Positions 44,977-64,000 of a DNA stretch of 64,000 bases are shown here, one piece after another. The stretch spans positions 1 to 64,000 of the forward strand of contig CALWRA010000011.1 of the NCBI GenBank assembly GCA_944383825.1, given 5' to 3'. The stretch comes from an uncultured Acetatifactor sp. (GTDB taxonomy: Bacteria > Bacillota > Clostridia > Lachnospirales > Lachnospiraceae). A program made the position numbers and the translations under genes. The notes beneath the pieces were generated by a model. That model ran no database searches, was not told the DNA's origin, and worked only from the letters and a program-made list of their open reading frames with translations. The stretch's first letter is position 1. Every line of letters starts with the position of its first letter.

Positions 44977-45001
44977 AAATAAATACAGGAGGAGTGCGGG
45001 A

Positions 45002-45940
45002 ATGTCCATATCTGTATGTATAGGTGTATACAATGGAGCAAAATATATCGAAGAGCAGATGCTATCCATTCTGCACCAAACCATGCAGCCGGACCAGGTG
45101 ATTCTCTGTGACGATGGTTCTTCGGATGATACTGCCGAGATAGTAAAAGATTTTATAGAAAAATACAGTCTAGAGGGAAAATGGAAGCTTTTTTTAAATC
45201 TCAGGAATTTGGGATACCCTGCAAATTTTTATCACGCCATGGAACTTGCTGTCTGTGATATTGTGTTTTTGTCCGACCAGGATGATATATGGGATGAAAA
45301 GAAGCTGGAAAGGATGACAAAGGCGTTGGAGGAGCATCCGGAGGCAAGAGCTGTGTGCTGCAAATTTGGTCTGATTGATGAAAACGGCAAGAGTATCCGC
45401 ACCTTTATGCGGCCGGCCAGAAGCAATGGCAGCGGCACTGTCAAGAGTATTTCTATAGAGGATGTTTTTTATAAATGCGAATGGCCGGGAATGGTGCTTG
45501 CCTACCGCAATGACTGGTGCCGGAAACGGATAGGAGAGACAAGATTTACAATACCGCATGATTTCTTTGTCTGTGCGGCGGCGGCAGAGGAAGAGGGCTT
45601 TTTGCAGTTGGATCAGGAGCTAGCCTGGCACAGGCGGCATGGCAGCAATACCGGCGGAGAGGAGCATAGACTGAGGCGGCTTCTCAGTAAAGAGAGAAAG
45701 CTGAAGGAAATTGTGGAATATGTGAGAATTTTGGAAGCATTTGAAAAGGAAGGAGCGCTGGAGACAAAGAGAGGAAAAGCAGCTTTAGCCAACAAATTAT
45801 TTACAATGCAATGCAGGTATCATGCTTTAAAGACAGGTAAAATATCGGAGGTTTTCAAAAATGCGGAAAAAAATCGAGATTATATCCGTTTAGAAACATT
45901 TGTATGTGATATGCTGATTGTAAAGCAGAAGCCAAGATGA
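45002..45940 (+). CDS. GT2 family glycosyltransferase (rhamnosyltransferase-like)
   Basis: A 312-residue GT-A enzyme: ISVCIGVYNGAKYIEEQML, CDDGSSDDTAEI, FLSDQDDIWDEKKLERM and the acceptor-side WPGMVLAYRNDW with HDFFVCAAAAEEG. The SDQDDxW motif and this C-terminal layout fit the RfbF/WcaA-type rhamnosyl transferases. CAGGAGG precedes the ATG. It shows no membrane segment. The last helix-rich 80 residues are basic and may dock on the membrane. Confidence 0.87.
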   Translation: MSISVCIGVYNGAKYIEEQMLSILHQTMQPDQVILCDDGSSDDTAEIVKDFIEKYSLEGKWKLFLNLRNLGYPANFYHAMELAVCDIVFLSDQDDIWDEKKLERMTKALEEHPEARAVCCKFGLIDENGKSIRTFMRPARSNGSGTVKSISIEDVFYKCEWPGMVLAYRNDWCRKRIGETRFTIPHDFFVCAAAAEEEGFLQLDQELAWHRRHGSNTGGEEHRLRRLLSKERKLKEIVEYVRILEAFEKEGALETKRGKAALANKLFTMQCRYHALKTGKISEVFKNAEKNRDYIRLETFVCDMLIVKQKPR

Positions 45941-45988
45941 GATTGAGCTTCAATGTGGAGAAATCTGGGAAACTGAGGAGAGAAATAA

Positions 45989-46017
45989 TTGAACTTTGGT
46001 ATTTTAAGTGATACAAT
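45989..46017 (+). promoter_or_regulatory. promoter at the start of the AT-rich block
   Basis: TTGAAC (45989-45994), a 17-base spacer and TACAAT (46012-46017) with an extended TGA. It lies in the 109-base gap where base composition becomes more AT-rich and the ABC-transporter-type genes begin. Confidence 0.7.
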
Positions 46018-46049
46018 GTATCTGATTATAACTTTAAGGGAGATAGTAA

Positions 46050-46889
46050 ATGGATCAACCTTTGGTTTCTATAATAGTGAGAACTTGTCAGCGTCCTGAA
46101 GTTTTGCGGGAGGCACTTGATAGTATAAGACGCCAGACATATTCCAATATACAAGTTATTGTTGTGGAGGATGGAGAAAATGCGGCGGAAGATATGCTGG
46201 AGCAAGACTATTCAGGAATGAATTATATCTATGAGGCCACTGGCCGGAAACAGGGGAGAAGCAGAGCTGGCAATAGGGCATTGCAGCTGGCGACAGGAGC
46301 TTATATTAATTTTTTGGATGATGACGATATTTTTTTTGAACAGCATGTCCAAATATTGGTTGATGCGCTGAAAACCAGTGAAGATTTAGCGGCATACAGC
46401 ATTGCAGAAGAGCGTCAAATTGTAAAAGAGAAGGAAGGCTCAGGCGCTCATAAAATTAAGAGACGGACCATCAGATATAATCAACCTTTTAACAGACTGC
46501 TGCTGTATACCTTTAATTATATTCCCATTCAAAGTATAATGTTTCACAGGAGTTTGTTTGAAACGCTTGGAGGCTTTGATGAAAATTTGGAGGCTTTGGA
46601 AGACTGGGATTTATGGGTGAGATATTCTTTGAAAACAGATTTCTTATATGTAAATAAAGTGACCTCTGGTTATCATGTGCCCTATAAATTAGAAAGTAAA
46701 AGTGCAAGAGCAGCAGGAATGAGGGAATATGTACGGCCGTTGCATCAGAAATTCAACACTTATGAACTGCGCATTAGTGTCGGAGAGGTGAACCGGGATA
46801 TGACCTATGTGATTCGGGAATATAAAAATAAGGGATTATTAAGGTATCTGAGAATGTTTTTCAGAGTGGTATTTCTCGGAGAAAGATAA
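46050..46889 (+). CDS. GT2 family glycosyltransferase
   Basis: A 279-residue GT-A transferase: PLVSIIVRTCQRPEVLREALDS, VEDGENAAEDML, SRAGNRALQLATGAY and NFLDDDDIFFEQH. The DGEN variant of the usual DGSxD box is common in O-antigen loci. The C-terminal ALEDWDLWVRYSLKTDF carries the EDWDLW acceptor motif of this group. AAGGGAG precedes the ATG and its own promoter lies just upstream. First gene of the Wzm/Wzt-type part of the cluster. Confidence 0.88.
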   Translation: MDQPLVSIIVRTCQRPEVLREALDSIRRQTYSNIQVIVVEDGENAAEDMLEQDYSGMNYIYEATGRKQGRSRAGNRALQLATGAYINFLDDDDIFFEQHVQILVDALKTSEDLAAYSIAEERQIVKEKEGSGAHKIKRRTIRYNQPFNRLLLYTFNYIPIQSIMFHRSLFETLGGFDENLEALEDWDLWVRYSLKTDFLYVNKVTSGYHVPYKLESKSARAAGMREYVRPLHQKFNTYELRISVGEVNRDMTYVIREYKNKGLLRYLRMFFRVVFLGER

Positions 46890-46900
46890 TTGGTGAATAT

Positions 46901-48013
46901 ATGAGTGATAAAATAATGGTAACCAGGTCTTCTATGCCTCCGCTGGAGGAATATATCGAGGAAATCGAAGGTTTATGGGATAGCCACATTCTTACCAATA
47001 TGGGGCAGAAGCACAGAGAACTGGAAGAAAAGCTTAAAAGATACTTGGGAGTAAGACATATCTCCTTAATGGTCAATGGGCATATGGCTTTGGAATTAGC
47101 AATTCAGGCAATGAATTTGACCGGGGAAGTTATAACTACTCCTTTTACTTTTGCGTCTACAACCCATGCAATTGTAAGAAACGGTCTGAAACCTGTATTC
47201 TGTGATATTAATTCCGAGGATTATACCATCGACGTCAGTAAAATAGAGAATCTCATTACGGAGAAAACATGCGCAATTGTACCAGTTCATGTATATGGCA
47301 ATATCTGCGATGTGGATCAGATTCGGGAGATAGCTGTTCGGCACGGCTTGAAGGTAATTTATGATGCGGCTCATGCCTTTGGGGAAACGTATAAAGGAAA
47401 GGGCATTGGCAATTTTGGAGACGCTTCGATTTTCAGCTTTCATGCAACAAAGGTGTTTAATACGATTGAAGGAGGGGCAGTAAGCTACAGCAATGAGGAT
47501 TATGGAATTGATTTGTACAGATTGAAGAACTTCGGAATTCGTGGTCCGGAAACAGTGGATTTTGTAGGGGCAAATGCTAAAATGAACGAGTTCCAGGCGG
47601 CTATGGGTTTATGCAACATACGTTATGTGGATGGGGAGATTGAAAAACGAAAATTTGTCTTCCATTGTTATATGGAAAGGCTGAAGGATTTACCGGGGCT
47701 GTCTCTGCCGCTCCAGCAGAAGAAAGTGAAAAATAATTATGCATATTTCCCGATTGTTGTTTGGGAAAAGGAATTTGGAAAGACAAGAGATATTGTATTT
47801 GAAGCGCTGGCTAAGGAAAACATATATAGCAGGAAATACTTTTATCCTTTGACCAATACGTATGACTGCTTTGAAGGGCAATTCGATGTAAAGAGTACGC
47901 CTACAGCAGTACATATTTCTCAAAGGGTTTTAACATTGCCTATGTATGCGGATTTAACAGAGAATCAAGTGGATAAGATATGTGAAATTATTCGTAAGGA
48001 AGCAAGATGCTGA
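46901..48013 (+). CDS. DegT/DnrJ/EryC1/StrS aminotransferase
   Basis: A 370-residue PLP-dependent sugar aminotransferase that adds an amino group to a nucleotide-keto-sugar. The PLP lysine is in SFHATKVFNTIEGGAV; the substrate and cofactor sites are MVNGHMALELA, TPFTFASTTHAI, PVHVYGN and YDAAHAFG. It resembles the 3- or 4-aminotransferases of the dTDP- or UDP-deoxysugar pathways (VioA, FdtB, PglE-like groups); the exact sugar cannot be read from sequence. No matching dTDP-sugar synthesis genes are in this block, so the precursor must come from elsewhere or from the dehydratase at 33385. Eleven bases follow the GT2 stop. Confidence 0.9.
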   Translation: MSDKIMVTRSSMPPLEEYIEEIEGLWDSHILTNMGQKHRELEEKLKRYLGVRHISLMVNGHMALELAIQAMNLTGEVITTPFTFASTTHAIVRNGLKPVFCDINSEDYTIDVSKIENLITEKTCAIVPVHVYGNICDVDQIREIAVRHGLKVIYDAAHAFGETYKGKGIGNFGDASIFSFHATKVFNTIEGGAVSYSNEDYGIDLYRLKNFGIRGPETVDFVGANAKMNEFQAAMGLCNIRYVDGEIEKRKFVFHCYMERLKDLPGLSLPLQQKKVKNNYAYFPIVVWEKEFGKTRDIVFEALAKENIYSRKYFYPLTNTYDCFEGQFDVKSTPTAVHISQRVLTLPMYADLTENQVDKICEIIRKEARC

Positions 48014-48032
48014 GAAAGGCGTAACAATCAAA

Positions 48033-48836
48033 ATGATTACTGGATTTATTGGATTTATAAAAGGTTTATTTGAAGAACGAAAAGTGATTTTTGACTTGGC
48101 GAAAAATGATTTTAAAGCAAAATATACAAATTCCTTATTAGGAATAGCGTGGGCTTTTATGTTGCCGCTGACAGTGATACTTGTTTTATGGTTTGTATTT
48201 CAGGTGGGCTTTCGATCAATGCCGGTTGATGATGTGCCGTTCATTCTTTGGTATATTCCCGCATTTTTATCCTGGAATTTTTTTTCTGATGCATTTGGAA
48301 GCGCTTCCGGCTGTATTTTTGATTATTACTACCTGGTAAAAAATATGAAATTCCGAGTTAGTTCATTGCCTGTTGTAAAAATTATTTCTTCCAGTTTTGT
48401 GCATTTTTTCTTTATCATATTTATCTTTGTGATTTATGCAATCTATGGCAGATGGCCAAGTATTTACAATTTTCAGATTATATATTATTATTTTTGTACT
48501 ATTATTTTGCTTTTGGGAGTTACTTGGCTGATGTCTGCACTGGCGGTGTTTTCAAAAGACATTTTAAATATAATTTCTTTGATTGTACAAGTTGGTTTTT
48601 GGGCAACGCCAATTGTTTGGGACCCGGGAAGCATGCCGCCTATTGTACAGGCTGTTGTGAAAATCAATCCGATGTATTATATTTGTGTCGGATATAGAGA
48701 GAGCTTCTGCGGAGAAACCTGGTTCTGGAATCATCCTGTGCAGACTGTGTATTTTTGGGTTTTTGCCTTATCCCAGCTGGTTTTGGGCGCTTATGTATTT
48801 CATAAGCTCAGGCCGCAGTTTGCAGATATGTTGTAG
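48033..48836 (+). CDS. ABC-2 type polysaccharide export permease (Wzm)
   Basis: A 267-residue membrane permease with six helices, of the Wzm/TagG/RfbA type, which moves a finished lipid-linked polymer across the membrane with its ATPase partner. Family marks are LAKNDFKAKYTNSLLGIAWAF at the N-terminus, FFSDAFGSASG and YYLVKNMKFR in the middle, and WATPIVWDPGSMP with INPMYYICVGYRE near the end. The chosen ATG at 48033 avoids a GTG start inside the previous gene. AGAAAGGCG lies upstream. The ATPase gene begins 12 bases after the stop. Confidence 0.88.
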   Translation: MITGFIGFIKGLFEERKVIFDLAKNDFKAKYTNSLLGIAWAFMLPLTVILVLWFVFQVGFRSMPVDDVPFILWYIPAFLSWNFFSDAFGSASGCIFDYYYLVKNMKFRVSSLPVVKIISSSFVHFFFIIFIFVIYAIYGRWPSIYNFQIIYYYFCTIILLLGVTWLMSALAVFSKDILNIISLIVQVGFWATPIVWDPGSMPPIVQAVVKINPMYYICVGYRESFCGETWFWNHPVQTVYFWVFALSQLVLGAYVFHKLRPQFADML

Positions 48837-48848
48837 AAAGAGGTAATT

Positions 48849-50231
48849 ATGAGCGAGTTTGCTATTCAGGTAAAAAATCTGACAAAAACATATAAATTAT
48901 ATCAGAATAATAAAAGAAGGATTATTGAGGGACTGTTTCCGAAAATCAAAAGCCAGCATACGGAATTTCATGCGCTAAAGGATGTTGAATTTAGCATAAA
49001 AAAAGGGGAAATTGTCGGCATCATAGGAAAAAACGGAAGTGGTAAATCAACATTATTAAAAATTATTACGGGAGTTTTAAATCCTACCAGCGGAAGCGTG
49101 TTGGTTGAGGGAAGAATATCTGCCTTGCTTGAACTGGGTGCGGGATTTAATCCTGAATATACGGGAATAGAGAATATATATTTGAATGGTACGCTGAACG
49201 GAATTACGCGGGATGAAATGAGCCGGAGGATTGATGATATTGCGCGGTTTGCGGATATAGGAGATTTTATTCATCAGCCTGTAAAGAATTATTCCAGCGG
49301 TATGTTTGTCAGATTGGCATTTGCGGTGGCAGTGTATTCGGATCCCGACATATTAATTGTAGACGAAGCTTTAGCGGTGGGAGACGCGGCTTTTCAGGCA
49401 AAGTGTATGGCCAGAATGAACCAGATAATGCGCACAGGGGCAACGGTTTTATTTGTTACGCATGATATGAATACAGTTAAGAGGCTTTGTCAGAGATGTA
49501 TATATCTGGAAAACGGTACAAAGATAATGGAAGGCGATGCAGAGGAGCTGGCAGATATATACTTGAAGCGCATCCGGGCGGCTATGAATGAAGAACATTT
49601 GAAGCTTGATCAGAATAGGGAAAGCATAAAGAAGCATTCTGAAACAGAAATAGAGAATAATAATGAAAGAAAAAATATCGGATCGGATGAAAAAATAGTT
49701 GACAGAGTAGAAATGCAAAGGTTTGAAAATGAACATTTCATAGAGAAAACGAGGTTGTTCAGAGAGGGCACAGGTACAGTAGAATTTATAGATTTTAAAT
49801 TGTTAGATGAAAATGATAAAGAAACCTATTCTTTCGCGTTTGACCAGAAAATGAAATTGAGAATTCTTTTGAAAGTAAACTCTTCTGAAACTTTTGCGGT
49901 GGCCTATCATATCAAAGATGATAAAAATATGGAGCTGCTGGGGAGTTCTACTTTGCGGGAAACTGGAGAAATGATTCAGGGGGAAAGTGGTGAAATATAT
50001 GAAATTGTATTAACCACAAGACTGCCTGTTGTGGAAGGGAATTATAATATCATGTTATTGGCGTCAAGGCCGGTAATAGAAAACAGGACTGCAATGTTTC
50101 TTTCTTTGATTGAAAATGCCGCAGTGTTTACTGTGGAAGAGAATTTTAAACTAAAGCTCTGGGATAAGGTATATTTAAAGAATGAAGTCAATGTGAAAAA
50201 ATTGTGCCGTATGAGAGAGAGCAGCGTTTAA
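48849..50231 (+). CDS. ABC polysaccharide exporter ATPase with C-terminal glycan-binding domain (Wzt)
   Basis: A 460-residue ATPase partner of the preceding permease. Walker A is GKNGSGKST (60-68), the signature YSSGMFVRLAFA is near 146, and Walker B ILIVDEALAVGDA near 167, all as in Wzt/TagH. After a charged linker (about 245-300) comes a Wzt_C-type beta-sandwich (about 300-445; TGTVEFIDFKLLDEN, KMKLRILLKVNSSETFAVAYHI), which in Wzt binds the chain-end cap of the polymer. So export should depend on a capped polysaccharide, and a capping enzyme is expected among neighbouring genes. Confidence 0.92.
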   Translation: MSEFAIQVKNLTKTYKLYQNNKRRIIEGLFPKIKSQHTEFHALKDVEFSIKKGEIVGIIGKNGSGKSTLLKIITGVLNPTSGSVLVEGRISALLELGAGFNPEYTGIENIYLNGTLNGITRDEMSRRIDDIARFADIGDFIHQPVKNYSSGMFVRLAFAVAVYSDPDILIVDEALAVGDAAFQAKCMARMNQIMRTGATVLFVTHDMNTVKRLCQRCIYLENGTKIMEGDAEELADIYLKRIRAAMNEEHLKLDQNRESIKKHSETEIENNNERKNIGSDEKIVDRVEMQRFENEHFIEKTRLFREGTGTVEFIDFKLLDENDKETYSFAFDQKMKLRILLKVNSSETFAVAYHIKDDKNMELLGSSTLRETGEMIQGESGEIYEIVLTTRLPVVEGNYNIMLLASRPVIENRTAMFLSLIENAAVFTVEENFKLKLWDKVYLKNEVNVKKLCRMRESSV

Positions 50232-50253
50232 AATTTTTCAGGAGAGCGATAGA

Positions 50254-50961
50254 ATGAGATTGGGTATAATGCAGCCGTACTTTTTTCCTTATCTGGGATA
50301 TTTCTCTTTAATAAAGCATGTTGATAAATTTATTTTGTTTGATACAGCACAGTTTATTAGACATGGTTGGATTGAACGGAATAGGATATTGAAACCGGGA
50401 GGGGGCTGGCAATATTTTTCCGTGCCTTTGTGCAAACATAGTCAGAAAACACCTATCAACAAAATTGAAATTAATAATCAAATTTCGTGGAAAAGTAAAA
50501 TATTGGCACAAATGGTACACTATAAAAAAGCTCCGTATTATGAAGCTGTTATTCATCTGCTTCAAGATATATTTCAAGAGGACTTTAAAGATATTGTAAG
50601 TTTCGACTGTTGCTCTTTAAAAAAGGTTTGTGATTATCTTGATATAAAGACGGAAATTACTGTTTTTTCCACTATGGAGCTTCATATTGAAGATGCAAAT
50701 GCTCCTGATGAATGGGCGCTGAATATCTGCAAGAGTCTGCCAAATACTGATGAATACTGGAATCCGCCTGGTGGAAAAGATTTTTTTGATATAAACAAAT
50801 ATATGGATGCTAATATAAATATTTGTTTCCAGCAAGTAAATTTAAGCGAGTATAAGCAGGGGAAAAATCCTTTTGAAAAGGGACTGTCTATTATTGATGT
50901 TATGATGTACAATTCTCCATCAATGATTGGCATGATGCTGGATGACTTCACTTTATTGTGA
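50254..50961 (+). CDS. WbqC family protein
   Basis: A 235-residue WbqC-like protein: MRLGIMQPYFFPYLGYFSLI, FDTAQFIRHGWIERNRI, SWKSKILAQMVHYKKAPYY, WNPPGGKDFFDINKY and the conserved C-terminal YKQGKNPFEKGLSIIDVMM. The family is found in O-antigen and capsule loci; its reaction is not firmly established, and it may act on sugars or lipid intermediates. CAGGAGAG precedes the ATG. It is immediately followed by a deacetylase-like gene. Confidence 0.85.
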   Translation: MRLGIMQPYFFPYLGYFSLIKHVDKFILFDTAQFIRHGWIERNRILKPGGGWQYFSVPLCKHSQKTPINKIEINNQISWKSKILAQMVHYKKAPYYEAVIHLLQDIFQEDFKDIVSFDCCSLKKVCDYLDIKTEITVFSTMELHIEDANAPDEWALNICKSLPNTDEYWNPPGGKDFFDINKYMDANINICFQQVNLSEYKQGKNPFEKGLSIIDVMMYNSPSMIGMMLDDFTLL

Positions 50962-50991
50962 CATGATTTTTGGGATGATGCGGAGAATAAT

Positions 50992-51789
50992 ATGCGGGTA
51001 GTAATAAATGCCGATGATTTTGGGATGTCGCATGAAAAAAACATTGCCATAGATAAAATGATGAGGGAGGGAGTTTGTACTAACGCTTCGTTGGCTGTGA
51101 ATATGCCATGGACCAAAGAAGCGGTTCAAATGTCCCGTGCAGGAGGATATACACAGAAGATTTCGCTGCATATCAATCTGACGGTTGGAGAGGCATTGTC
51201 TGAAAATATTAAAAGAGTTAGTTTGTATTATAATAACGGTACTTTTGCTTATAAGCCAATTATTAAAAAATTTAGACAAATATATCCGTTTCATATTAAA
51301 ATTATCAGAGAAGAAATTGAAGCGCAGATCGAAACTTTTTTAAATTTTGGATTAGAGCTAAGAAGTCTGGATTCCCATAATTGGGTTCATTTGCGAATAC
51401 CGGTTTGGCTGGCTCTAAAGCCCTTGCTGCAAAAATATGATATAAAAATTGTGAGACCAATGTGGAAAGGGTATAAAAGGCCGGAAATAGCCTCCAGACG
51501 TTGGAGCAGGTATTTTTCAATAATGGAACCTTTTCTGTTGAGATGTCCGCAATGCAGAGTGTTTGGACATTCAAGCAATATAGAACAGTTTTTGCTGGAA
51601 GAAAAAAGTTTAACGAAAATTGATTTCACAGAAGTATTTACACATCCTGATTTAGTGAACCAAAAAATTATTGATATATCAAGTTCTTATTTGAGAAATC
51701 CCCGTGAAGAAGTAACCAAAAATGTGGCAAAAATGAAGAAATACCTTCCGATTACAATAGAAGAATTGCTAGAGGAGAAAAAAGGATGA
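50992..51789 (+). CDS. YdjC/ChbG-type carbohydrate deacetylase
   Basis: A 265-residue polysaccharide deacetylase-like protein of the YdjC fold. MRVVINADDFGMSHEKN gives the DD metal-site motif, LHINLTVGEALS holds the metal-binding His, and LDSHNWVHL and CPQCRVFGHSSN the later active-site loops. ChbG removes acetyl from chitobiose; relatives act on hopanoid or other acetylamino sugars. A role on the lipid-linked sugar of this pathway is inference. The stop overlaps the next start (ATGA at 51786). Confidence 0.82.
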   Translation: MRVVINADDFGMSHEKNIAIDKMMREGVCTNASLAVNMPWTKEAVQMSRAGGYTQKISLHINLTVGEALSENIKRVSLYYNNGTFAYKPIIKKFRQIYPFHIKIIREEIEAQIETFLNFGLELRSLDSHNWVHLRIPVWLALKPLLQKYDIKIVRPMWKGYKRPEIASRRWSRYFSIMEPFLLRCPQCRVFGHSSNIEQFLLEEKSLTKIDFTEVFTHPDLVNQKIIDISSSYLRNPREEVTKNVAKMKKYLPITIEELLEEKKG

Positions 51790-52796
51790 AAAAAATTATT
51801 ATTATTGGGGCCACCGGTGAAACAGGTATGTATATTACTGACTATTTTTGCAGGAAAGCTAAAGGAGAATTTGAAATTATTGCTGCCGGATTAAGAAAAA
51901 CTCAATTTTTTGACAGATACAATATTCCTTATTACAGCATTGACATCGGGAAAAAGGAGGCATTTCAAATGTTGCCTCAAAAGGATGTTTTTGCAGTAAT
52001 ATATACTGCTGCAGTGATGCCCGGCAGAATGAAGGGGTACAATCCAATGCTGTATTTGGAGACCAATGTTTGCGGTACACTCAATGTGTTAGAATATTGC
52101 CGTAAAGTACGGGCAGATCGTATTATTTTTACGCAGACCATCCGTGATTTGGGTAATAAGATAGGAAAAGAAATTATTACCGCAGATGCTGCACGGGATT
52201 TTTCCTATAAAGGTGACCATGCGGTATATGTTATTTCAAAAAATGCTGCGGTGGATTTGATAGAGCATTATTATCAGGAGTATGGACTGAAAAGATTTAT
52301 TTTTCGCTTACCTACCATTTATATGTATACTCCTAATAAATATTATTGCGTAAACGGCGAAAGGAAGATTATGGGATTCAGATATATGATTGACCAGGCG
52401 ATTTCCGGAGCAGATATTGAATTGTGGGGAGAACCGGAAAAAGCTCATGATATATTATATGTGAAAGATTTGGCTTACTTATTTTATTTGGCGTGCAAAT
52501 CTTCTCTCGATGGCGGAATGTATAACGCCGGTACAGGAAAACCCATAACGCTTTTGGAACAAATTAAAGGAATGATACAGGTATTTGGAAGTGACCAAAA
52601 GAAATCAAAGATAATATATTGTCCTGAAAAAGGAAGCGCCCGGCAATATACGATTGATATTTCGAAAACTCAAAGGGAACTGGGGTATGAACCTCAATAT
52701 GGTTATATAGATTACTTAAAGGATTTTAAAACAGAAATGGAGGATAACCGCTTTGCGGATTTATTTCAAGGGCCAGCAAAGACCAAAGAGGCGTAA
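51786..52796 (+). CDS. NAD(P)-dependent nucleotide-sugar epimerase/dehydratase
   Basis: A 336-residue extended SDR. The cofactor loop is IIGATGETGMYITDYF, followed by YTAAVMPGRMKG, NVCGTLNVLEYCRK, and the catalytic YVISKNAAVDLIEHYY (YxxxK). The serine normally at the first catalytic site is replaced in TQTIRDLG by Thr, which is acceptable. LRLPTIYMYTPN-like and GKPITLLEQIKGM segments complete it. It resembles UDP-sugar 4-epimerases and reductases. It overlaps the deacetylase gene by four bases, and the next start is directly on its stop, so the three are co-translated. Confidence 0.85.
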   Translation: MKKIIIIGATGETGMYITDYFCRKAKGEFEIIAAGLRKTQFFDRYNIPYYSIDIGKKEAFQMLPQKDVFAVIYTAAVMPGRMKGYNPMLYLETNVCGTLNVLEYCRKVRADRIIFTQTIRDLGNKIGKEIITADAARDFSYKGDHAVYVISKNAAVDLIEHYYQEYGLKRFIFRLPTIYMYTPNKYYCVNGERKIMGFRYMIDQAISGADIELWGEPEKAHDILYVKDLAYLFYLACKSSLDGGMYNAGTGKPITLLEQIKGMIQVFGSDQKKSKIIYCPEKGSARQYTIDISKTQRELGYEPQYGYIDYLKDFKTEMEDNRFADLFQGPAKTKEA

Positions 52797-53874
52797 ATGA
52801 AAAAATTTAGGAACAGCAATATTGATATATTAAAAGCAATAAGTGCATATCTGGTTTGTTATTCACATTTTAATAATTCTGTAAAAGTAGGTTATGAATA
52901 TTGGCTTTCACTGGAGGGAATGATAGGCTATATGCTCTTGGCAGTTTCTTCCATGGCTGTTCCTTTATTTTTGATGATAAATGGCTATCTGGTTATAAAT
53001 AAAGTATATTCTTATGATGAATATGTTAAAAAAGCGATTAAAATTATTTTAATCACTACTGTTTGGTGTATATTATATAATATTATATTTTCCTGTTTTT
53101 TCCGTGAAGGAAAAAAAGTGAGCGATATACTTTATGCTGTTTACAATGGAATTTACACAGGGGAGTATATCAGTATCAGAAATTGGTTTTTTTATGCCCT
53201 GTCAGTTTGTTATTTGTTGTCTCCGCTGATCAAAAAGGTATTTGAAAGTGATAACAAGAATTTGATAAAGTATATGTTTTTCTTGCCTGCCATATATATT
53301 TGGGGAAATGATTTGTGGCAGAAAATAATTTTATTGGTGGGGTATCAAGGTAGAATAACAGAAGTGTTTCCCAGAACGAATATCTTTGATGCCTGGGATT
53401 CCTTTGCTCTGCTTTATTATTTGTTTGGAGGCATTTTGTACAAATATGCATGGGGAGAAGAAAATAGAATCAAAAAGCTAATTCTTGCAGCAGTTTCACT
53501 GTTCATAATATGGGGATACGGTATCTTGTACGTATATAAAAATAAAATATTCTATAATATCGTGTGGGGGGGGGTATCCAAGCTGCTTTTTGTTCGCAGC
53601 ATCAGGTTTATTGGCGGCAGTGTTAATCAATTATAGAGGAAGAATCAGTAATGTTATAAAGTTTTTGGGGGAAAGAATAGCTGGTAATACATTTGGTATA
53701 TATTTTGTTCATTTGCTTATAGGATCATTTTTTAAGCCGTATTATGTGGAAAGGATCCGAGATGATTCATTGTTTGGCGGAATTGTCTATGCAAGCCTGG
53801 TTTTTGCTATATCTTATTTTGTGACAGATTTTATAAAAAAGGTTCCCGTTTTGAAAAGGATTGTCACGCTTTAA
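52797..53874 (+). pseudogene. acyltransferase 3 family protein, off-frame at a G9 tract
   Basis: An O-acyltransferase (OafA-like) that would acetylate a sugar of the polymer. The first frame (52797-53636) has NIDILKAISAYLVCYSHFNN with the conserved His, and seven or more helices. The rest (53590-53874) carries FAASGLLAAVLIN, GNTFGIYFVHLLIG and the final helices. A run of nine G (53566-53574) separates them. With eight G the frame continues VWGGYPSCFLFAASG and gives one 358-residue chain. A long poly-G in an envelope-modifying gene is a classical phase-variation site, so this copy may be the off state. A read error remains possible. Confidence 0.8.
53566..53574 (+). repeat. poly-G tract of nine, candidate phase-variation switch
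   Basis: Nine G in a row inside the acyltransferase gene. Eight would restore the frame. It is the longest G run noticed in the window, in an otherwise AT-rich block. Confidence 0.85.
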
Positions 53875-53936
53875 GCTAAAATTGCGAATGAATTAGAGAA
53901 GATGAATGACAGTTACAATAAAAGGAGAAGTCATAT

Positions 53937-55112
53937 ATGAGAAAGTGCGCCGTATGCGGCAGTTCTTTTGAGCGGTACGCAGGATTAGATCCTGTATATA
54001 TTGAAAATCCTAAAAAGTATGGGAGAAAAATTAAAGTAAAATCAGAATTGCTTAATCCGGAAGAATATTCATGCCCTGTCTGCTATTCTGCGGACAGAGA
54101 CAGAATGATTGTATTATTTATTAAAAAATTAAGAGAAGCATTTGGAACGACTGCACCCTCTGTCAAATTTTTGGAGGTAGCACCGTCAGCTGCCTTAAAG
54201 AGGTATTTGTATAAAGAATGGGGGGAAAGTTTTTTATACACTGCTGATTTATATATGGACAATGTGGATTTTAAGGTGGATATTCAAAATATGGAAGAAA
54301 TTCCAGACCAAACGTTTGATTTTATCGTATGCAGTCATGTGCTGGAGCACGTGAAAGACGACCAAAAGGCCATGGGGGAATTAAATCGTGTTTTGAAAGA
54401 CGCAGGACTGGGGATTTTGCTGGTTCCCATCAATTTATTTCAGGAGCAAACAGATGAAGAATGGGGGCTGTCTGAGGAAGAAAACTGGAGGAGATTTGGG
54501 CAAGGGGATCATGTCAGGGCCTATAATAAACTCGATTATGTTGCACGCTTGGAAGCAAATGGCTTTTGCGTCTTAGAACTAAATAAGAATTATTTTGATA
54601 AGGACGATTATGAGGCAAATGCTTTCAATGATACCGCGACATTATATTTAGTGCATAAAAATCCTGATATCTACAGCAGTCTTGAAGAAATTGCAGATAA
54701 ATTTAAAGAAACGCATCTTAATGATACTTATCTCTATAAAAATGTTGAAGAGGGTGTATGCAATTATTGGATAGATCTTTGCCGGCATGAAAATGATCAA
54801 CTTCAAATTTGGGGCTGGGCATATTTCAGAGAACATGATTCCAGAAAAACCAAGCTGAAGCTTCATTTAGCAGGGAGGAGCATTCAGCGGACATTTGCCT
54901 TTGATCTTCGATATAGACAGGATGTATGTCAGCTTTTTGGAGAAAGCTGCGGGTTTTCAGGAATTGATATTTTAAAGGATGTGAGTATAAGTGATATGGA
55001 GGGGGGAAAGGTCAGCTTGCGACTATATAATGAGGGAAGCTGTTATACGATTCCGTTATCAGTTGAAAGGATAGAAGAAAATGAACCTGACTGTAATATT
55101 GACCTCCTATAA
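53937..55112 (+). CDS. class I methyltransferase with zinc-ribbon start and beta-rich tail
   Basis: A 391-residue protein. A zinc-binding segment (CAVCGS, CPVCYSADRDR) is followed by a SAM-dependent methyltransferase core (VKFLEVAPSAALKRYLY, VDFKVDIQNMEEIPDQTFDFIVCSHVLEHVKDD, with the LEH motif) and a lid region with HVRAYNKLDYV. The last 130 residues (from about 265) form another domain: YWIDLCRHENDQLQIWGWAYF, SIQRTFAFDLRYRQDV, GFSGIDI. That tail recurs in polysaccharide proteins but I cannot name its role. It may methylate the chain end, giving the cap that Wzt reads; this is inference. Its stop overlaps the next gene. Confidence 0.8.
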   Translation: MRKCAVCGSSFERYAGLDPVYIENPKKYGRKIKVKSELLNPEEYSCPVCYSADRDRMIVLFIKKLREAFGTTAPSVKFLEVAPSAALKRYLYKEWGESFLYTADLYMDNVDFKVDIQNMEEIPDQTFDFIVCSHVLEHVKDDQKAMGELNRVLKDAGLGILLVPINLFQEQTDEEWGLSEEENWRRFGQGDHVRAYNKLDYVARLEANGFCVLELNKNYFDKDDYEANAFNDTATLYLVHKNPDIYSSLEEIADKFKETHLNDTYLYKNVEEGVCNYWIDLCRHENDQLQIWGWAYFREHDSRKTKLKLHLAGRSIQRTFAFDLRYRQDVCQLFGESCGFSGIDILKDVSISDMEGGKVSLRLYNEGSCYTIPLSVERIEENEPDCNIDLL

Positions 55113-56832
55113 CCATGAAAATGTTTTGCGTGAGAGCATTGACAGTGTTTTGCGGCAAACATACCAAAATTTTCAGTTTATTATAGTGGATGACTGTTCG
55201 ACAGATACATCATGGGATATTATCTGTGAATATAAAAACAGATACCCTGAAATAATGACTATTCGCCACGATTATAATTGGGGAGGAGGGGTGGTTGAAG
55301 ATACTGTAAAGAAATATGCCACAGGTGATTATATAGCAATTCATCATAGCGATGATGTTTGGGAAAAGGATAAGCTGAGCCGTCAGGTAGAAATATTTTA
55401 TAATCAACCAGATTGCGCGGCGGTTTTTACAAATGCAATAGCAATTGATGATCAAGGTAATAATTATAAAGATGAGCAGGGTTTTTATTATCACTTGTTT
55501 GCTGTACAGAACCGTTCAAGGCATGAATGGCTGAATTATTTTTTTTACAAGGGAAATTGCCTGTGCCATCCGAGTATTCTGGTTAAAAAAAGTGTGTACG
55601 AAGAAGATGGATTTTTTCGCAAGGGTTTGAAACAGATTCCTGATTTTGTTAAGTGGATTCAAATTTGTAAAAAGCATGAAATATATGTATTGCCTGAAGC
55701 GCTGGTAAAATTCAGAATTCATTCTAATGGGAAAAATACCAGTGGGATGAGCGCCATTACACAGATAAGGTCAACTATTGAATTGTTTTTGATGCTTGAC
55801 GAGTATCGGAAAATAGAAGATAGAGAAGAGTTTCTAAAAATTTTTCCTGAGGCCAAAGAGTTTTGTAATGGAAATTATTTTACTACTGAGTATGTACTGG
55901 GGCGTTTGTGCACACAGAAGGGAATGCCGTCCTATACTCGAATGTATGGGATTCAGCTTTTATATGAGGTTTTAAATAAGCAAGATGATGCCCGGCAAAT
56001 AAAAGAAGATTACAATTATACAGAAAAAAGTTTTAGAGAGGAAAATGGAAAATATGACATTTTTGGAATATTGCCCAAGGGCTTTGAACAGAAAAGAACC
56101 TTGTATTATGATTTAGGGAACGGCTTTAACTCAGATGAGTGCATTAGACAAAATTTTATATTGGAGAAGAAGGAAGCCTTTGAAATGTCTTGCACTATTG
56201 TATTTTCCTCAGACCAAAGCCTTAAAAAATTGAGATTTGATCCAGGTGAAGAGGTAATGCTGAAGGTAAAGATACGCCAGGTATTGATTAACGGGTGCGA
56301 GGCTGCCTTTTACCCTGAAAACGCTTTGAATTCTGTGAATGATGAAGATTTTTTTGTAACGCTTGACCCAATTTATAATATTGCGATACCTGACAATTGT
56401 ATTAAAAGTACCGACAATGAAGCAAACGTTATTATCCGCGGAACGGTAACTCGATTATCAGATGAAGAGATTGGAGAATTAGCCACTATTCTTTTGTACG
56501 ATATAAGAGGAGAGAAGCATGAGACGGGTAAAAAGCAGTTGGAAATGGAGAAGGAAATACAAAATCTTCGATTAAACAACCAGGTAATTTGCAAGGAAAA
56601 GAAACAGCTTGTTGATAAAAACAAGAGCTTAGCGGCAGAGTGCTCAGAATTAAAAAGGGGAAAAGAAAAGCTGGAAGCAGAAAATGATCGTTTAAAACAG
56701 GAGTTTACTGCAGAGAACGAGCGTCTAAAACAGGAGTTTACTGCAGAGAACGAGCGTCTAAAACAGGAGCTTGCCAGTATTAAAGAGCACTTTTTATACA
56801 AATGTTATGTTAAATTTAGAGGGAAAGAATGA
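55081..56832 (+). CDS. GT2 glycosyltransferase with C-terminal coiled coil
   Basis: A 583-residue protein in three parts. The GT-A transferase (1-250) has LTVILTSYNHENVLRESID, VDDCSTDTSWDII, DYNWGGGVVEDTV and HHSDDVWEKDKLSR. A beta-rich segment (about 340-480) with SDQSLKKLRFDPGEEVMLKV resembles the Wzt_C fold in style. A long coiled coil follows (about 485-570) with ENERLKQEFTA repeats, and KCYVKFRGKE ends the chain. The start overlaps the methyltransferase by 32 bases. Coiled coils in such enzymes act as molecular rulers for O-antigen length in other bacteria (WbdD), a possibility here. Confidence 0.8.
   Translation: MNLTVILTSYNHENVLRESIDSVLRQTYQNFQFIIVDDCSTDTSWDIICEYKNRYPEIMTIRHDYNWGGGVVEDTVKKYATGDYIAIHHSDDVWEKDKLSRQVEIFYNQPDCAAVFTNAIAIDDQGNNYKDEQGFYYHLFAVQNRSRHEWLNYFFYKGNCLCHPSILVKKSVYEEDGFFRKGLKQIPDFVKWIQICKKHEIYVLPEALVKFRIHSNGKNTSGMSAITQIRSTIELFLMLDEYRKIEDREEFLKIFPEAKEFCNGNYFTTEYVLGRLCTQKGMPSYTRMYGIQLLYEVLNKQDDARQIKEDYNYTEKSFREENGKYDIFGILPKGFEQKRTLYYDLGNGFNSDECIRQNFILEKKEAFEMSCTIVFSSDQSLKKLRFDPGEEVMLKVKIRQVLINGCEAAFYPENALNSVNDEDFFVTLDPIYNIAIPDNCIKSTDNEANVIIRGTVTRLSDEEIGELATILLYDIRGEKHETGKKQLEMEKEIQNLRLNNQVICKEKKQLVDKNKSLAAECSELKRGKEKLEAENDRLKQEFTAENERLKQEFTAENERLKQELASIKEHFLYKCYVKFRGKE
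56701..56766 (+). repeat. 33-bp perfect tandem duplication in the coiled-coil region
   Basis: Two identical 33-base copies (56701-56733 and 56734-56766), each coding for 11 residues of coiled coil. Being in frame and perfect, they look recent and could change coil length by copy number. Confidence 0.9.
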
Positions 56833-56842
56833 GGGAGGAAAT

Positions 56843-57676
56843 ATGGAAAGGGTAAGTGTAATCATGCCATGCTATAATGATGGACAATATATAGAGGAAG
56901 CAATTCTGTCAGTGAAGCAGCAGACTTATACGGATATAGAATTGATTGTAGTGGATGATGGTTCAGATGATGAAGAGACAATAAAAATACTGGATAGACT
57001 GGAAGATGAGGTCATATTGCTTAGGACAAAGCATCTGCGGCCTGCCGGGGCGAGAAATTATGGGATCAGTCATGCCAGTGGAAAATATATAATGCCAGTG
57101 GATTCAGATGATAGGATAGATAAGACATATATAGAAAAGGCTGTTAAAATCATTCAGACAGATGAGAAAATAGGCGTAGTTTACTGTGAAGCAGATTTGT
57201 TCGGAGAAAAAAAAGGAAAGTGGGATTTGCCCAAATATTCATTTGACAAAATGCTGCTGGATAATATTGTATTTGTTACAGCTCTTTTTTATAAAGAGGA
57301 TTGGGAAAAAGTTGGAGGCTTTAACACGCATATGTTGGCCGGTATGGAAGATTATGACTTTTGGCTTGCTATTCTGGCTCTGGGGAAAGAAATTTATCAA
57401 ATTCCGGAGATTCTCTTTCATTATCGTATCAAGCCGGTGTCCCGAACAACTGGTTTCCAGGCAGACTATATTCAAATGCAGGATACATACCGGAAGATAT
57501 ATGATAACCATAAAGAATTTTATGGAAGGAATGCGGAACGGTATGCAAAAATTTTAAGAGATGCGTTGATAGAACAAATTGCAATTCGCATGAAATACGA
57601 AAAAATTTTTGAAAATATAAAAAAATATTATCACTGGCCTGTAATAGGAAAGATTGTTAAAAAAATAGTGAACTGA
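56843..57676 (+). CDS. GT2 family glycosyltransferase
   Basis: A 277-residue GT-A transferase: VSVIMPCYNDGQYIEEAILS, VDDGSDDEETI, LRPAGARNYGISHA and MPVDSDDRIDKTYIEK, then NTHMLAGMEDYDFWLAI on the acceptor side. GGGAGG (56834-56839) sits four bases before the ATG at 56843; the earlier in-frame ATG at 56771 would overlap the previous gene without a ribosome site. It carries no membrane helix. Confidence 0.88.
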   Translation: MERVSVIMPCYNDGQYIEEAILSVKQQTYTDIELIVVDDGSDDEETIKILDRLEDEVILLRTKHLRPAGARNYGISHASGKYIMPVDSDDRIDKTYIEKAVKIIQTDEKIGVVYCEADLFGEKKGKWDLPKYSFDKMLLDNIVFVTALFYKEDWEKVGGFNTHMLAGMEDYDFWLAILALGKEIYQIPEILFHYRIKPVSRTTGFQADYIQMQDTYRKIYDNHKEFYGRNAERYAKILRDALIEQIAIRMKYEKIFENIKKYYHWPVIGKIVKKIVN

Positions 57677-57716
57677 ACAGATAACAGATCGTAAGCTACT
57701 GTTATATAAAGTTAAC

Positions 57717-57738
57717 GTCCGTTAAAGCGGACAGGAGG
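57717..57738 (+). promoter_or_regulatory. hairpin directly before the ribosome site at 57746
   Basis: GTCCGT-TAAA-GCGGAC (57717-57732; one T-G pair) followed at once by AGGAGG (57733-57738). Same design as at 2880 and 22335, although this one is in AT-rich DNA. Confidence 0.5.
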
Positions 57739-57745
57739 TGCAGAA

Positions 57746-58831
57746 ATGATTATATTCACATCTATATGTGAGAATTATACACATAAGGCAAGAACTCTCG
57801 CGGAGTCAGTGAAAAGAAATATTCCAGACGCAAAATTTTTAGTATGTTTGACCGAAAGAGAAAAAAGTCCTGAAATGCAATTCTCATACTTTGACGATGT
57901 AATTTTATCTAAAGATATGTGGGAAGGTAACTTTAACAGATTTATATTTAAACATAGCATTGTCGAAGCGTCTACTGCTGTGAAAGCGCACTTCTTTTTG
58001 TATTTGTTGAATAGATTTCCTGATGAAAATGAATTTATTTATTTGGATCCTGACTGTTATGTATACTCTGACTTTATAGAGCTAAGAGAGCTGTTGAGAA
58101 CGAAGGCTATCATTTTGTGCCCTCATTTACTTCAGCCTGGAAATATTGACATGGAATTATCTTCTACAGCGCACGGCGTATATAATCTGGGCTTTTTGGC
58201 AATTAACCATAGCGAAGAAGCAGAAAAATTTATTAGCTGGTGGGCAGAGCGGCTTTATTTATTTTGCTATGATGACATTCAGAGAGGGATTTTTACAGAT
58301 CAAAAATGGATCGATTTGGCTCCATGCTTTTTTGATGTTGAAATTTTGAAGCATAGGGGATATGATTTTGCTCCCTGGTCTTTGCTTGATTGCGGAATGA
58401 CCAAGGAAAATGGCAAGTTTTTTGTAAAAGGTGATGACTTGCGATTTATACATTTTTCCGGTTTTGGGGCAACTGCGCAGAAATGTATGAATGATTGGTT
58501 GCCGGAAGGCGATCATCCCTTTAGAGAATTATATGATAAATATAGTTTGAAGCATGAACAAAATGATTCGGACCATGTGTCAAAGAAACAATGGAGCTAT
58601 TCAAAATATGATTCTGGAGAAAAAATAGATGACAGCCTGAGGACAAAATATCGAAATAGTTATGAAACTATGTTCAGTATTGAAGATCCTTTTCAGCTGA
58701 GCAATAAGGAGATAAAGAGCATGCTCCAAAAACCTAAGGACAACATAGCATTGTCTGAAAAAATCAGGTATGTTATGGAAAGGGAAGGAATAAAGGGAGT
58801 CATCAGACGCGCAATTAAGAGTTTGCCATAA
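57746..58831 (+). CDS. glycosyltransferase-like protein (GT-A fold, GT8-type style)
   Basis: A 361-residue protein, probably a transferase: FTSICENYTHKARTLAESV at the N-terminus, the metal motif YLDPDCYVYSD (DxD), GVYNLGFLAINHSEEAEKFISWW and QRGIFTDQKWIDLAPCFF. The order (short nucleotide fold, DxD, then the DQxW block) is like GT8-type proteins of glycan loci. The last 70 residues are charged. The start follows AGGAGG and a hairpin. A precise donor is not predictable. Confidence 0.72.
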   Translation: MIIFTSICENYTHKARTLAESVKRNIPDAKFLVCLTEREKSPEMQFSYFDDVILSKDMWEGNFNRFIFKHSIVEASTAVKAHFFLYLLNRFPDENEFIYLDPDCYVYSDFIELRELLRTKAIILCPHLLQPGNIDMELSSTAHGVYNLGFLAINHSEEAEKFISWWAERLYLFCYDDIQRGIFTDQKWIDLAPCFFDVEILKHRGYDFAPWSLLDCGMTKENGKFFVKGDDLRFIHFSGFGATAQKCMNDWLPEGDHPFRELYDKYSLKHEQNDSDHVSKKQWSYSKYDSGEKIDDSLRTKYRNSYETMFSIEDPFQLSNKEIKSMLQKPKDNIALSEKIRYVMEREGIKGVIRRAIKSLP

Positions 58832-58895
58832 CTTGTATTTTTAACGTTTATTTGCAGTATAGAATGAACTATTTTGCCACAAAGGAAAGAGATGT

Positions 58896-59191
58896 ATGGA
58901 ATCTAAAGGCAGACCTGATTTTAGAATAATAGGGGAAAATAATGGTGTTATTTTTAAATGTTCTGAGGATACTCAGGAGAAAGTATTCTTGGAGCTGCAA
59001 GTACATTGGGGGGAATAATTGTTCCGCCTAATACAATATACCCTGAAAGAAAACGCATGAAGAAAGAAGTGACTTGGGAAAGAGCAAAAATCTTGAATGG
59101 GTATCCGAAGATTGAGCTTGAAGTTGCAAACACTAATACAGATGATTATATATATGCTTTTACAGAAAGCAAAGTACAAAAATTTATTTAA
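58896..59191 (+). pseudogene. small unknown protein, frame broken at a G6 run
   Basis: The first frame (58896-59020) gives MESKGRPDFRIIGENNGVIF and on to ELQVHWGE. A second frame (59006-59191) continues VHW-GGIIVPPNTIYPERKRM to KVQKFI. The G6 run at 59009-59014 separates them; seven G would join both into one 98-residue chain. AAAGGAAAGAG lies before the ATG. The function is unknown and there are no membrane segments. It sits between a transferase and the YfhO-like gene. Confidence 0.6.
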
Positions 59192-59208
59192 AGAAGCTGG
59201 GAAATAAT

Positions 59209-61842
59209 ATGCTGAAAGAATTCTTGAAAAATAACAAGTATTTTCTGTTCTACACAGTGGTTGCCGTAGTTGTATTCGGCGTAATATATCTGCCTATTTT
59301 ATTTGAAGGCAAGATGTATATGTATATGGACATAGGGGCGGATACTTATGGTAGCTATTGGCCTTCTTTGTCTTATTGCGCTACACTTCTTAAAGACTTT
59401 AAATTATGGGATATGAGTCTTGGTTTGGGAGCATCTACCATGATACAAGTTGCGTATTTTTTGGTTGATCCCTTTAACTGGATTACATTTTTGCTTCCTC
59501 CTTTCAATATGGACATAGGCATTTACATAGCCTTATGTTTAAAATATATTATTCTATGCATTGCAGCGTATAAGTATTTGGGAAAAATGACACTGAAAGG
59601 CTGGCCAAAGGTTTTAGCTTCTCTGTGCCTGGTCTTTTCGGGCTGGTTTGTGGGATGGGGACAGCATTATAACTATGCAACCATGTTTGTGTTTTTTATA
59701 GTAATTCTTTATTTTTTTGAATGCTGGCTGCAGGACGGAAAGTGGCTTGGTTATGTTTTATCATTAGCCTGGCTGGCTATGATGACGGTTTATTATTGCT
59801 ATATGACATTGCTGTTTTTGGCGGTCTACTATATGTTTAGGCGTTTTTCTGTCTTTGCGGCAAAAGAGTATAAAGCTTTTTGCATGCATGGGCTGAAGAC
59901 GATTGGTTTATGCGTTGCAGGAATCGGCATATCATCTGTTGTTTTTATTCCGAATGTTTTTGACCTGTTGGGAAGTCCGCGGGTGGGGTCGAGCTTAGTG
60001 CCGAGTTTATCGTTGGCAAGTGCAAACGAATATGCTTCTATTTTATACAGAAGTTTATCAAATAATATCCTTGGCATAAATGGAACATTTTACGGCTATG
60101 CCAATTGGTATGAGTGCCCCTTTATTTATGTTGGCATTATATCGTTTTATATGATACCTTTAGCCTTTAAGAAAAAAAATGTGACAAGAACAAGAGTGAT
60201 AGCCGGAATATTGGTGTTGCTTTGCATTGTATTTCCCCACTTTTTTGCTATAATACTCAATGCCTTCAGCATAATAACTTACCGCTGGACTTATTTATTC
60301 ATACCGGTTTTTGCCCTAGGAATAGGACTGGGTGCTACAGAGTTAGAAAAAGAATCGGAATCTAAGATTTTTAAAATTGTTTATATATTTATTAATGCAT
60401 TGATTGCAGCGTACGCAGTTTATTTATTGACAATTCAAGAAGAAGCGGCGGCAAGAGAGGTTATCTATTCTATTGCCGCGGTGCTTGTCGCAGCAGCATT
60501 ATACTTTATTATATTAGAAAAAAAATGGAAAAAAAAGTCAATAGGTACATTAATTTTGATTATTGTTTGTGCCGCTGAACTAGCGTGTAATGGAGTCGTT
60601 AGTGTACAGTTTCGAAGTCTGATAGATGCTGATAGCAAAGAACAAATGAATTATTTTGATGCATCAACCCAGTTAATTGAATATGTGAAGACCAATGATC
60701 CAGGTTTTTATCGAATTAATAAAAAATATGCGCAAGTTGATTTAAACGATAGTATGATACAGGATTACCGCGGAGAAAAATATTACAGTTCTATACTCAC
60801 GGATTCATATTGGAATTTGCAGAATATGTTTGATTTGCGCATAAAAATTTCCAATTATTTTTACGGATTTGATGATAAACAGTCATTGAGAAATATTAAC
60901 TGTGGAAAATATATGATCTCGACAAGTAATCGGCAATATTACGGTTATAATCAGATTGCAGAAAATGACAACCGCTATTTATATGAAAATACTAATAATA
61001 TAGGATTTGGATTCACTTATCATTATTATATAACGGAAAGCGAATTTGAAAAATTAAGCCAATATGAACAGCAAAATGTTATATATCAGGCATGCGTCAT
61101 AAACGATGAAGATGCGGTAAATATTTATGGAGACATTCCTATGCTCCAGCAAAAGGTTGAGATAGCGCTGAATGAAATTCCATATGAGGTGACAATCGAG
61201 GACAACGGCCAGGAAACTATCAAATTGGAAAAAAGTAATTCTAGTACTATTCTCATAGAATTATCAAATATTTCAGAGAATGACATATCAACTTATTTGA
61301 AAGTAGCTACGACTAATGATAATATATATTCGGAAGAAGATACCATATATATTGAAATCAAAACAGGTGAGACAAAGAGATATACAATAGACACGTTAAA
61401 TGTATGTAATATTATGGTAGACGAATCCCTGGAGCTGCTTCGGCCAGTTGTTTATGAAACGGATATGCGAGAGATAGAAGATATTATTGCGGAAAAAAGA
61501 GAAAACATTATGGATATCCGGGAACTGAGTGATGAGTATATTGCAGGTGAAGTGGAAACAGAAGAAAATAGCCTGTTGTATCTTCCCATTATATATGATT
61601 CTAACTGGAAGGTTACGGTAGATGGAGAGGAACAGGAAATTATACGCGCAAACGGAGCTTTTTGCGTAATCAACCTTAATGCAGGGAAGCATACTATTGT
61701 GGTTGAATACGACTCAAAAGCCATGCTGGTTGGGAGCGCTTTGTCAATCGTTTTTTTGGCCGGTGCAGCAATTTTATATGCTTTACAGAGGCAAGGGAAA
61801 ATTAAGGTAGCTGGTAATGAGAGAAAAAATACTTTACGCTAA
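59209..61842 (+). CDS. YfhO family membrane protein
   Basis: An 877-residue membrane protein with about twelve helices in the first 470 residues and one close to the end. It matches YfhO: YMDIGADTYGSYWPSL, VFSGWFVGWGQHYNYATMFVFF, ITYRWTYLFIPVFALG in the membrane part, then a long extracellular part with YLPIIYDSNWKVTVDGEEQ and GKHTIVVEYDSKAMLVGS before the last helix. YfhO-type proteins are GT-C-like glycosyltransferases that add sugars to lipoteichoic acid or other polymers from the outside. Its end overlaps the next start. Confidence 0.9.
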   Translation: MLKEFLKNNKYFLFYTVVAVVVFGVIYLPILFEGKMYMYMDIGADTYGSYWPSLSYCATLLKDFKLWDMSLGLGASTMIQVAYFLVDPFNWITFLLPPFNMDIGIYIALCLKYIILCIAAYKYLGKMTLKGWPKVLASLCLVFSGWFVGWGQHYNYATMFVFFIVILYFFECWLQDGKWLGYVLSLAWLAMMTVYYCYMTLLFLAVYYMFRRFSVFAAKEYKAFCMHGLKTIGLCVAGIGISSVVFIPNVFDLLGSPRVGSSLVPSLSLASANEYASILYRSLSNNILGINGTFYGYANWYECPFIYVGIISFYMIPLAFKKKNVTRTRVIAGILVLLCIVFPHFFAIILNAFSIITYRWTYLFIPVFALGIGLGATELEKESESKIFKIVYIFINALIAAYAVYLLTIQEEAAAREVIYSIAAVLVAAALYFIILEKKWKKKSIGTLILIIVCAAELACNGVVSVQFRSLIDADSKEQMNYFDASTQLIEYVKTNDPGFYRINKKYAQVDLNDSMIQDYRGEKYYSSILTDSYWNLQNMFDLRIKISNYFYGFDDKQSLRNINCGKYMISTSNRQYYGYNQIAENDNRYLYENTNNIGFGFTYHYYITESEFEKLSQYEQQNVIYQACVINDEDAVNIYGDIPMLQQKVEIALNEIPYEVTIEDNGQETIKLEKSNSSTILIELSNISENDISTYLKVATTNDNIYSEEDTIYIEIKTGETKRYTIDTLNVCNIMVDESLELLRPVVYETDMREIEDIIAEKRENIMDIRELSDEYIAGEVETEENSLLYLPIIYDSNWKVTVDGEEQEIIRANGAFCVINLNAGKHTIVVEYDSKAMLVGSALSIVFLAGAAILYALQRQGKIKVAGNERKNTLR

Positions 61843-63670: not shown

Positions 63671-63673
63671 GAA

Positions 63674-64000
63674 ATGCAAATAAAAATATCTTATAAAAAT
63701 GTACTATTCACAATAATTCTTTTTTTCGTATATACTTGTATTGTATTGACAATATGGGGGGATAAAAACGAAAGCTGGACATTTACTATAAATTATGAAA
63801 CGGATGCTTCAATAGAAACTTATTTGATAACTCTCAATGAAGGGGCCAACATTGAAGATTATTTTAACAATGGCATGATTGAGTCAGTACCGCCAGACAT
63901 GTTTATGGTTCCCGTAGATTATGAGAAAAATCTTGCTTCCTGTTCTTTTATGATTTCTTTGGATGCAGCCGGGGAGAATGATGATTTTGTAATTAGATCT
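63674..64000 (+). CDS. N-terminal part of an unknown membrane-anchored protein, cut by the window
   Basis: The reading frame is open for 109 codons to the end of the window. The beginning (MQIKISYKNVLFTIILFFVY) has one hydrophobic helix (about 10-30), then an extracellular-looking, acidic and beta-type region (WTFTINYETDASIETYLITL). GGAG overlapping the previous stop sits before the ATG. It may be another GT-C-type protein or an anchored accessory factor; no family was recognised from the part seen. Confidence 0.6.
   Translation, partial: MQIKISYKNVLFTIILFFVYTCIVLTIWGDKNESWTFTINYETDASIETYLITLNEGANIEDYFNNGMIESVPPDMFMVPVDYEKNLASCSFMISLDAAGENDDFVIRS

Follow-up and report, generated by a model that had tools for sequence, protein, structure and literature searches.

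A nine-guanine tract interrupting an acyltransferase gene in an uncultured Acetatifactor genome as a candidate contingency switch

The frame break in the acyltransferase gene

Is a run of nine G that splits an acyltransferase gene of an uncultured Acetatifactor sp. (assembly GCA_944383825.1) a contingency switch, the trace of a lost gene, or an error of the assembly? The gene lies in a stretch of 64,000 nucleotides (positions 1 to 64,000 of contig CALWRA010000011.1), hereafter the window, in which a first-pass annotation had singled it out as an O-acyltransferase that would be turned on and off by the length of the tract. Slipped-strand switching is known best from Gram-negative pathogens. According to our analysis, the tract (G9) is probably such a switch, caught in its OFF state, a reading to which we assign a probability of about 0.6. 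The tract is the sole plus-strand run of at least 7 G in the window, and the gene around it is arranged as follows.

52797..53636, plus strand: Acyl_transf_3 gene as it stands, read in the ATG frame, 279 codons; PF01757, E-value 2.2e-21, residues 7-260
53566..53574, plus strand: G9 tract, inside the codons of residues W257-G258-G259 in the intact database protein P0001
53578..53874, plus strand: C-terminal part of the acyltransferase, read in a different frame, 98 codons plus stop; PF01757, profile 249-324, E-value 1.6e-5

The ATG frame reaches its stop at 53634-53636, 62 bases past the tract, and its last 20 codons, which follow the tract, lie outside the family frame. The N-terminal piece scores 76.7 bits against Pfam Acyl_transf_3 (cut-off 31) and covers profile positions 2-244, while the C-terminal piece, which at 24.6 bits falls below the 31-bit cut-off when taken alone, covers the complementary part of the profile. 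Because Pfam places both pieces in Acyl_transf_3, in complementary parts of the profile and in different frames, the frame break sits at the tract. The proposal that nine G put the gene out of frame is thereby confirmed by the position of the tract, the two open frames and the Pfam matches on both sides of it, and these matches likewise support the identification of the product as an acyltransferase. In the available part of PMC6321876, a poly-G phase-variation locus is recognized by a tract of 7-8 or more G that lies within a reading frame and by its length determines the frame, and the G9 tract is of this form.

The intact form of the enzyme is known as a database protein, P0001 (358 amino acids), of which the window would carry the out-of-frame form. 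P0001 is identical to the N-terminal piece as far as the tract, and its residues 261-358 are the C-terminal piece (98 of 98 residues). Across the site of the tract it reads W-G-G-Y, which is known as protein sequence only and at that level fits the earlier arithmetic, whereby eight G would restore one 358-residue protein with no other defect. Since the two pieces differ from this protein in nothing but the break, the gene is not in decay. At 90% identity P0001 belongs to a cluster of 6 sequences found on 14 contigs, the longest of 314 kb.

The predicted model of the full-length protein has, over residues 3-358, a transmembrane acyltransferase fold like that of HGSNAT and GWT1, which agrees with the Pfam Acyl_transf_3 match, although sequence identity to these proteins is about 10% and the likeness comes from prediction; the first Foldseek search returned mainly transporters with poor TM-scores, and the clear HGSNAT-like result was obtained from a second look alone. 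The motif formed by a basic residue, ten residues of any kind and His, which together with its role we take to be a feature of Acyl_transf_3, corresponds to K13...H24 in P0001; the seven of eight alignment rows that reach it have it. After residue 259 the OFF form would no longer carry family sequence and, by the full-length model, would lack the long helices predicted at 263-277, 298-320 and 325-346.

We therefore propose that replication slippage would change the length of the G9 tract and that cells would alternate between the full-length acyltransferase and a truncated, predicted inactive form. Such slippage would have to take place in the living cell and be reversible. From gene context and family, the enzyme may acylate an exported glycan; switching would then change the decoration of the cell surface and might be of benefit against recognition by phages or by the host.

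Long G tracts in related genomes

Runs of at least 9 G were present in 33 of the 61 genomes searched for the genus, that of the window included; artefacts at contig ends account for some of them. With their flanks, 69 tracts were examined for frame changes and 70 for promoter-like pairs, three of them from the genome of the window. L067, L079, L081, L082 and other contig-end G runs were left out of both counts, and L074 was left out of the frame-change count alone; from seven genomes exact G9 runs alone were collected, plus L083, L084 and L086, the tracts being those among the matches listed. Clean splits, in which one Pfam family is found in different frames on either side of the tract, were detected in three cases, which head the following list of Pfam-identified tract genes.

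L063: Acyl_transf_3 gene split at a G9
L118: Acyl_transf_3 gene split at a G9, with the break at profile 223-233, near that of the window gene
L094: N6_N4 DNA methylase gene split at a G9
L077: MBOAT O-acyltransferase gene with an in-frame G10
L089: tract in or beside the start of an Acyl_transf_3 gene
L059, L085, L092, L096: tract in or beside hexapeptide transferase genes
L111: tract in or beside a D12 methylase gene
L124: tract in or beside a C5-methylase gene
L097, L120: tract in or beside glycosyltransferase genes
L084, L119: tract in or beside epimerase genes

In L059, L085, L092, L089 and L096 the gene has the tract at its very end, or else at or just before its start. The remaining neighbours comprise a cyclotransferase, AraC and GntR regulators, transporters, a sigma factor and an rRNA methylase, from which it follows that not every target is a surface gene.

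Acyl- or acetyltransferases (8) and DNA methylases (3) together account for 11 of the 47 scanned tracts of at least 9 G, as against none of 30 G7 controls from the genome of the window (p 0.005); the E-value limit was 1e-3 for tract genes but 1e-5 for controls, a slight advantage to the former. The controls are the 30 scanned out of 40 G7 loci, three lying in genes antisense to the run and seven being without a match; the scanned control genes include an O-antigen ligase and a cytidylyltransferase. We regard this enrichment as support, not proof, since the first 34 tracts were picked by eye and the controls come from a single genome, while the tracts come from many. Among the 69 tracts the frame changed at 11 and remained unchanged at 5, compared with 1 changed and 20 unchanged among 40 G7 controls; the codon model behind these counts was trained on the window only, and the control covers only the genome of the window.

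G runs in promoter-like spacers and in a C5-methylase gene

Long G runs were also found between promoter-like elements. Six of the 70 tracts fill the spacer of a promoter-like pair (at least 10 of 12 matches), with 1000 relocated controls giving 0.106 on average and never more than 2, and none of the 40 G7 tracts of the genome of the window scored above 8 for such a pair. A direct search for TTGACA, a run of at least six G and TAWAAT yielded 39 places in 15 of the 61 genomes, with up to nine per genome, while the reversed pattern was found in none of the 61; by this pattern no TTGACA-G-run promoter was found in the genome of the window. The recurrent element, which belongs to other genomes of the genus (L169-L198, L062, L099, L102, L104 and L105), reads TTGACA-N(8-10)-G(6-11)-TAAAAT. 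Because a run of 6-11 G follows 8-10 other bases in 27 of the 28 distinct places parsed, it is the length of the run that sets the spacer. Since most of these runs are G6-G8, a motif bound by a regulator explains the element equally well. Downstream of the promoters at L099, L102 and L104 are proteins with RHS-repeat and DUF2963 matches, which, from a reading of their starts, are probably secreted.

A further tract of the genome of the window, a G10 at C1:54711-54720 on the minus strand, follows the codons for KTLRVGG in a phage-type C5-methylase gene, whose database relatives continue in all three frames after this motif. Three viral contigs, mutually 98.6-99.1% identical over the 950 bases upstream, carry G8, G9 and G7 at the C5-methylase site, which shows directly that closely related DNA differs in the length of its G runs of this size. 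On sequence grounds, the C5-methylase tract looks as if it swapped C-terminal ends. DNA of the acyltransferase site was not found in viral contigs.

The tracts of the genus speak for the earlier interpretation in that other genomes of the genus have long G runs in genes for acyltransferases and DNA methylases, as well as in promoter-like spacers. A tentative extension, which we hold to be possible and somewhat doubtful, is a genus-wide poly-G programme, not described among the literature matches listed, in which acyltransferases and DNA methylases would be switched by frame, promoters would be tuned through the TTGACA-N(8-10)-G(6-11)-TAAAAT spacer (in some cases before repeat-bearing secreted proteins) and the phage-type C5-methylase would be read in three frames; the acyltransferase of the window would be one of its outputs.

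Weighing a switch against other explanations

The interpretation of the locus as a switch stands in part: the frame break, the acyltransferase identity, the intact protein elsewhere, the glycan context and the tracts of the genus speak for it, whereas the homologues that reach the site and the run lengths of the genome do not. Several results weigh against it. The tract is absent in all five homologues, out of seven, that reach the site (P0002, P0003, P0005, P0006 and P0007 read SS, NS, NG or SG, with no WGG) and is, judged from the sequences compared, private to the window gene. A database search with the C-terminal piece returned no fragment proteins, which would signal other OFF assemblies. 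Acyltransferase matches were present in 8 of 36 same-genus genomes, all of them weak (20-32% identity); in the whole set of 61 genomes (that of the window, 36 of the same genus and 24 of the same order) 10 matched, that of the window included, the others weakly. Two further scans of genome contigs, from which records very near the genome of the window were possibly left out, gave none and six distant matches. Since the matches in relatives are few, weak or distant, conservation of the tract is not traceable. As to length, when the gene (32% GC) was modelled as a first-order Markov chain, about 1% of 3000 trials contained a G or C run of at least 9; for the 19-kb region 45000-64000, about 10% of 300 trials did. 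The 2.74-Mb genome contains 321 G6, 42 G7, 9 G8, 2 G9 and 1 G10 runs (exact lengths); because three runs of at least 9 G stand against 0.8-2.5 expected by extrapolation (P 0.05-0.44), length alone is not significant genome-wide, and a statistical excess of the tract itself was rejected, the run lengths decaying smoothly. The smooth spectrum and the absence of the tract in homologues count, at the level of sequence, against a long-conserved switch. The enrichment of tract genes declines to 11/67 (p 0.016) when 20 unscanned tracts are taken as misses. It stood at 11/34 (p 0.0005) for the first 34 tracts, picked after the translations had been seen, and fell to 11/47 with ten further tracts and three promoter tracts that added no acyltransferase or DNA methylase; the ten comprised a sigma factor, an ABC transporter, a BTAD activator, an F420 ligase, RsmF, DUF218 and four without a match. 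At least 3 of the 11 frame changes are not breaks inside genes, L101 and L107 being gene boundaries and L104 a promoter, and the raw frame-change count overstates the number of broken genes.

Part of this evidence is what would be expected of a fixed or drifting loss-of-function allele, in which a G run derived from ordinary WGG codons slipped once and disabled the gene, with no selected switching: homologues reach the site without the tract, GGG makes up 20% of the 1089 glycine codons in 34 open reading frames (ORFs) of the window, and the run-length spectrum is unremarkable. We deem such an allele unlikely, in view of the two pieces being otherwise identical to the intact copy, with no second defect accumulated, and because long G runs in other genomes of the genus fall in genes for acyltransferases and DNA methylases, and in promoter-like spacers, more often than the controls do. 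A miscount in sequencing or assembly, with a tract of in-frame length in the real genome, would account for the intact protein in other data, and G tracts are hard to sequence, as stated in the available text of PMC9187656; however, the ten remaining homopolymers of 8-9 that the window contains all sit in frames that run on for at least 224 bases, which argues against general homopolymer miscounting. Of the nine G8 tracts in the genome of the window, five lie in a sense frame that continues (one being the C-terminal part of the C5-methylase); one marks a frame change (L010), one is in a frame that ends 46 bases on, one is antisense and one is in no listed frame. On balance we consider a miscount improbable, a little more so than a null allele. 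Transcriptional or ribosomal slippage on the G run, by which some full-length enzyme would be made and the tract would tune its amount instead of switching it, is suggested by the G run alone and appears very improbable, given that the frame closes 62 bases past the tract as in an ordinary OFF state.

Two other tracts of the genome are recorded here for their own sake. L010 (contig C16, minus strand, 1502-1509 of that strand) is a G8 where the frame changes inside an ABC transporter gene. L003 (C9:42360-42368) is a G9 between genes that by eye resemble rplL and rpoB; it is outside any listed frame, and no promoter-like pair scoring at least 8 was found around it.

Comparison with known systems

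A contingency switch in the acyltransferase gene would be a device of a kind already known; its novelty would lie in the lineage and in how targets are combined. According to the available part of PMC9187656, an intragenic G-tract switch has been measured in the gut commensal Bifidobacterium breve, in the sortase-pilus genes bbr_0113 and bbr_1889 (G10/G11). Both cases have an intragenic G tract and a frame-dependent surface structure, which is predicted here; they differ in that slippage was measured there, in pilus genes, whereas the G9 of a membrane acyltransferase is known here from sequence. In Campylobacter jejuni, G tracts of at least 8 mediate switching (PhasomeIt), and the accessible text of PMC6321876 describes poly-G tracts in reading frames with lengths mostly of 9-10 and homologues that occur without the tract, both of which resemble the present case; in contrast, tracts are many per genome there, against three of at least 9 G in 2.74 Mb here. 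The C-terminal phase variation of Helicobacter canadensis, as presented in the part of PMC2823697 available, likewise involves tracts late in the frame (here codons 257-259 of 358), although length variation was seen in reads there and the tract is known here from assembled sequence. No report of phase variation through poly-G tracts in an organism of this kind was among the literature matches listed. A lineage with long G tracts in its glycan acyltransferases, its DNA methylases and the spacers of its promoters would present a mixed surface even within one clone, which would matter for phage resistance, recognition by antibodies and the tracking of strains.

Gene neighbourhood and other observations

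The genes that flank the acyltransferase, identified through Pfam, are listed below.

48849..50231, plus strand: ABC transporter ATPase with a Wzt_C domain (predicted polysaccharide export)
50254..50961, plus strand: WbqC-like protein
50992..51789, plus strand: YdjC-like protein of the same gene run
51786..52796, plus strand: NAD-dependent epimerase/dehydratase, whose stop abuts the ATG of the acyltransferase gene
53937..55112, plus strand: next gene downstream, with a methyltransferase domain, starting 301 bases past the OFF stop

To judge from these matches, the run looks like a polysaccharide-export cluster, and the predicted export and sugar genes around the acyltransferase support the surface-modification setting that had been assumed for it. 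The GC content is 37% at 45-64 kb of the window and 47% in its first 20 kb.

Elsewhere in the window, two pairs of overlapping frames, 41595-43040/43031-43708 (overlap 43031-43040) and 61881-62735/62702-63319 (overlap 62702-62735), mark possible frame changes away from any long homopolymer, with no Pfam match for either piece of either pair. Two ORFs carry in-frame repeats near their ends, namely 39823-41562, with SGGGSTGGSTDSGA at about 41380-41562, and 55081-56832, with AENERLKQEFT at about 56670-56770.
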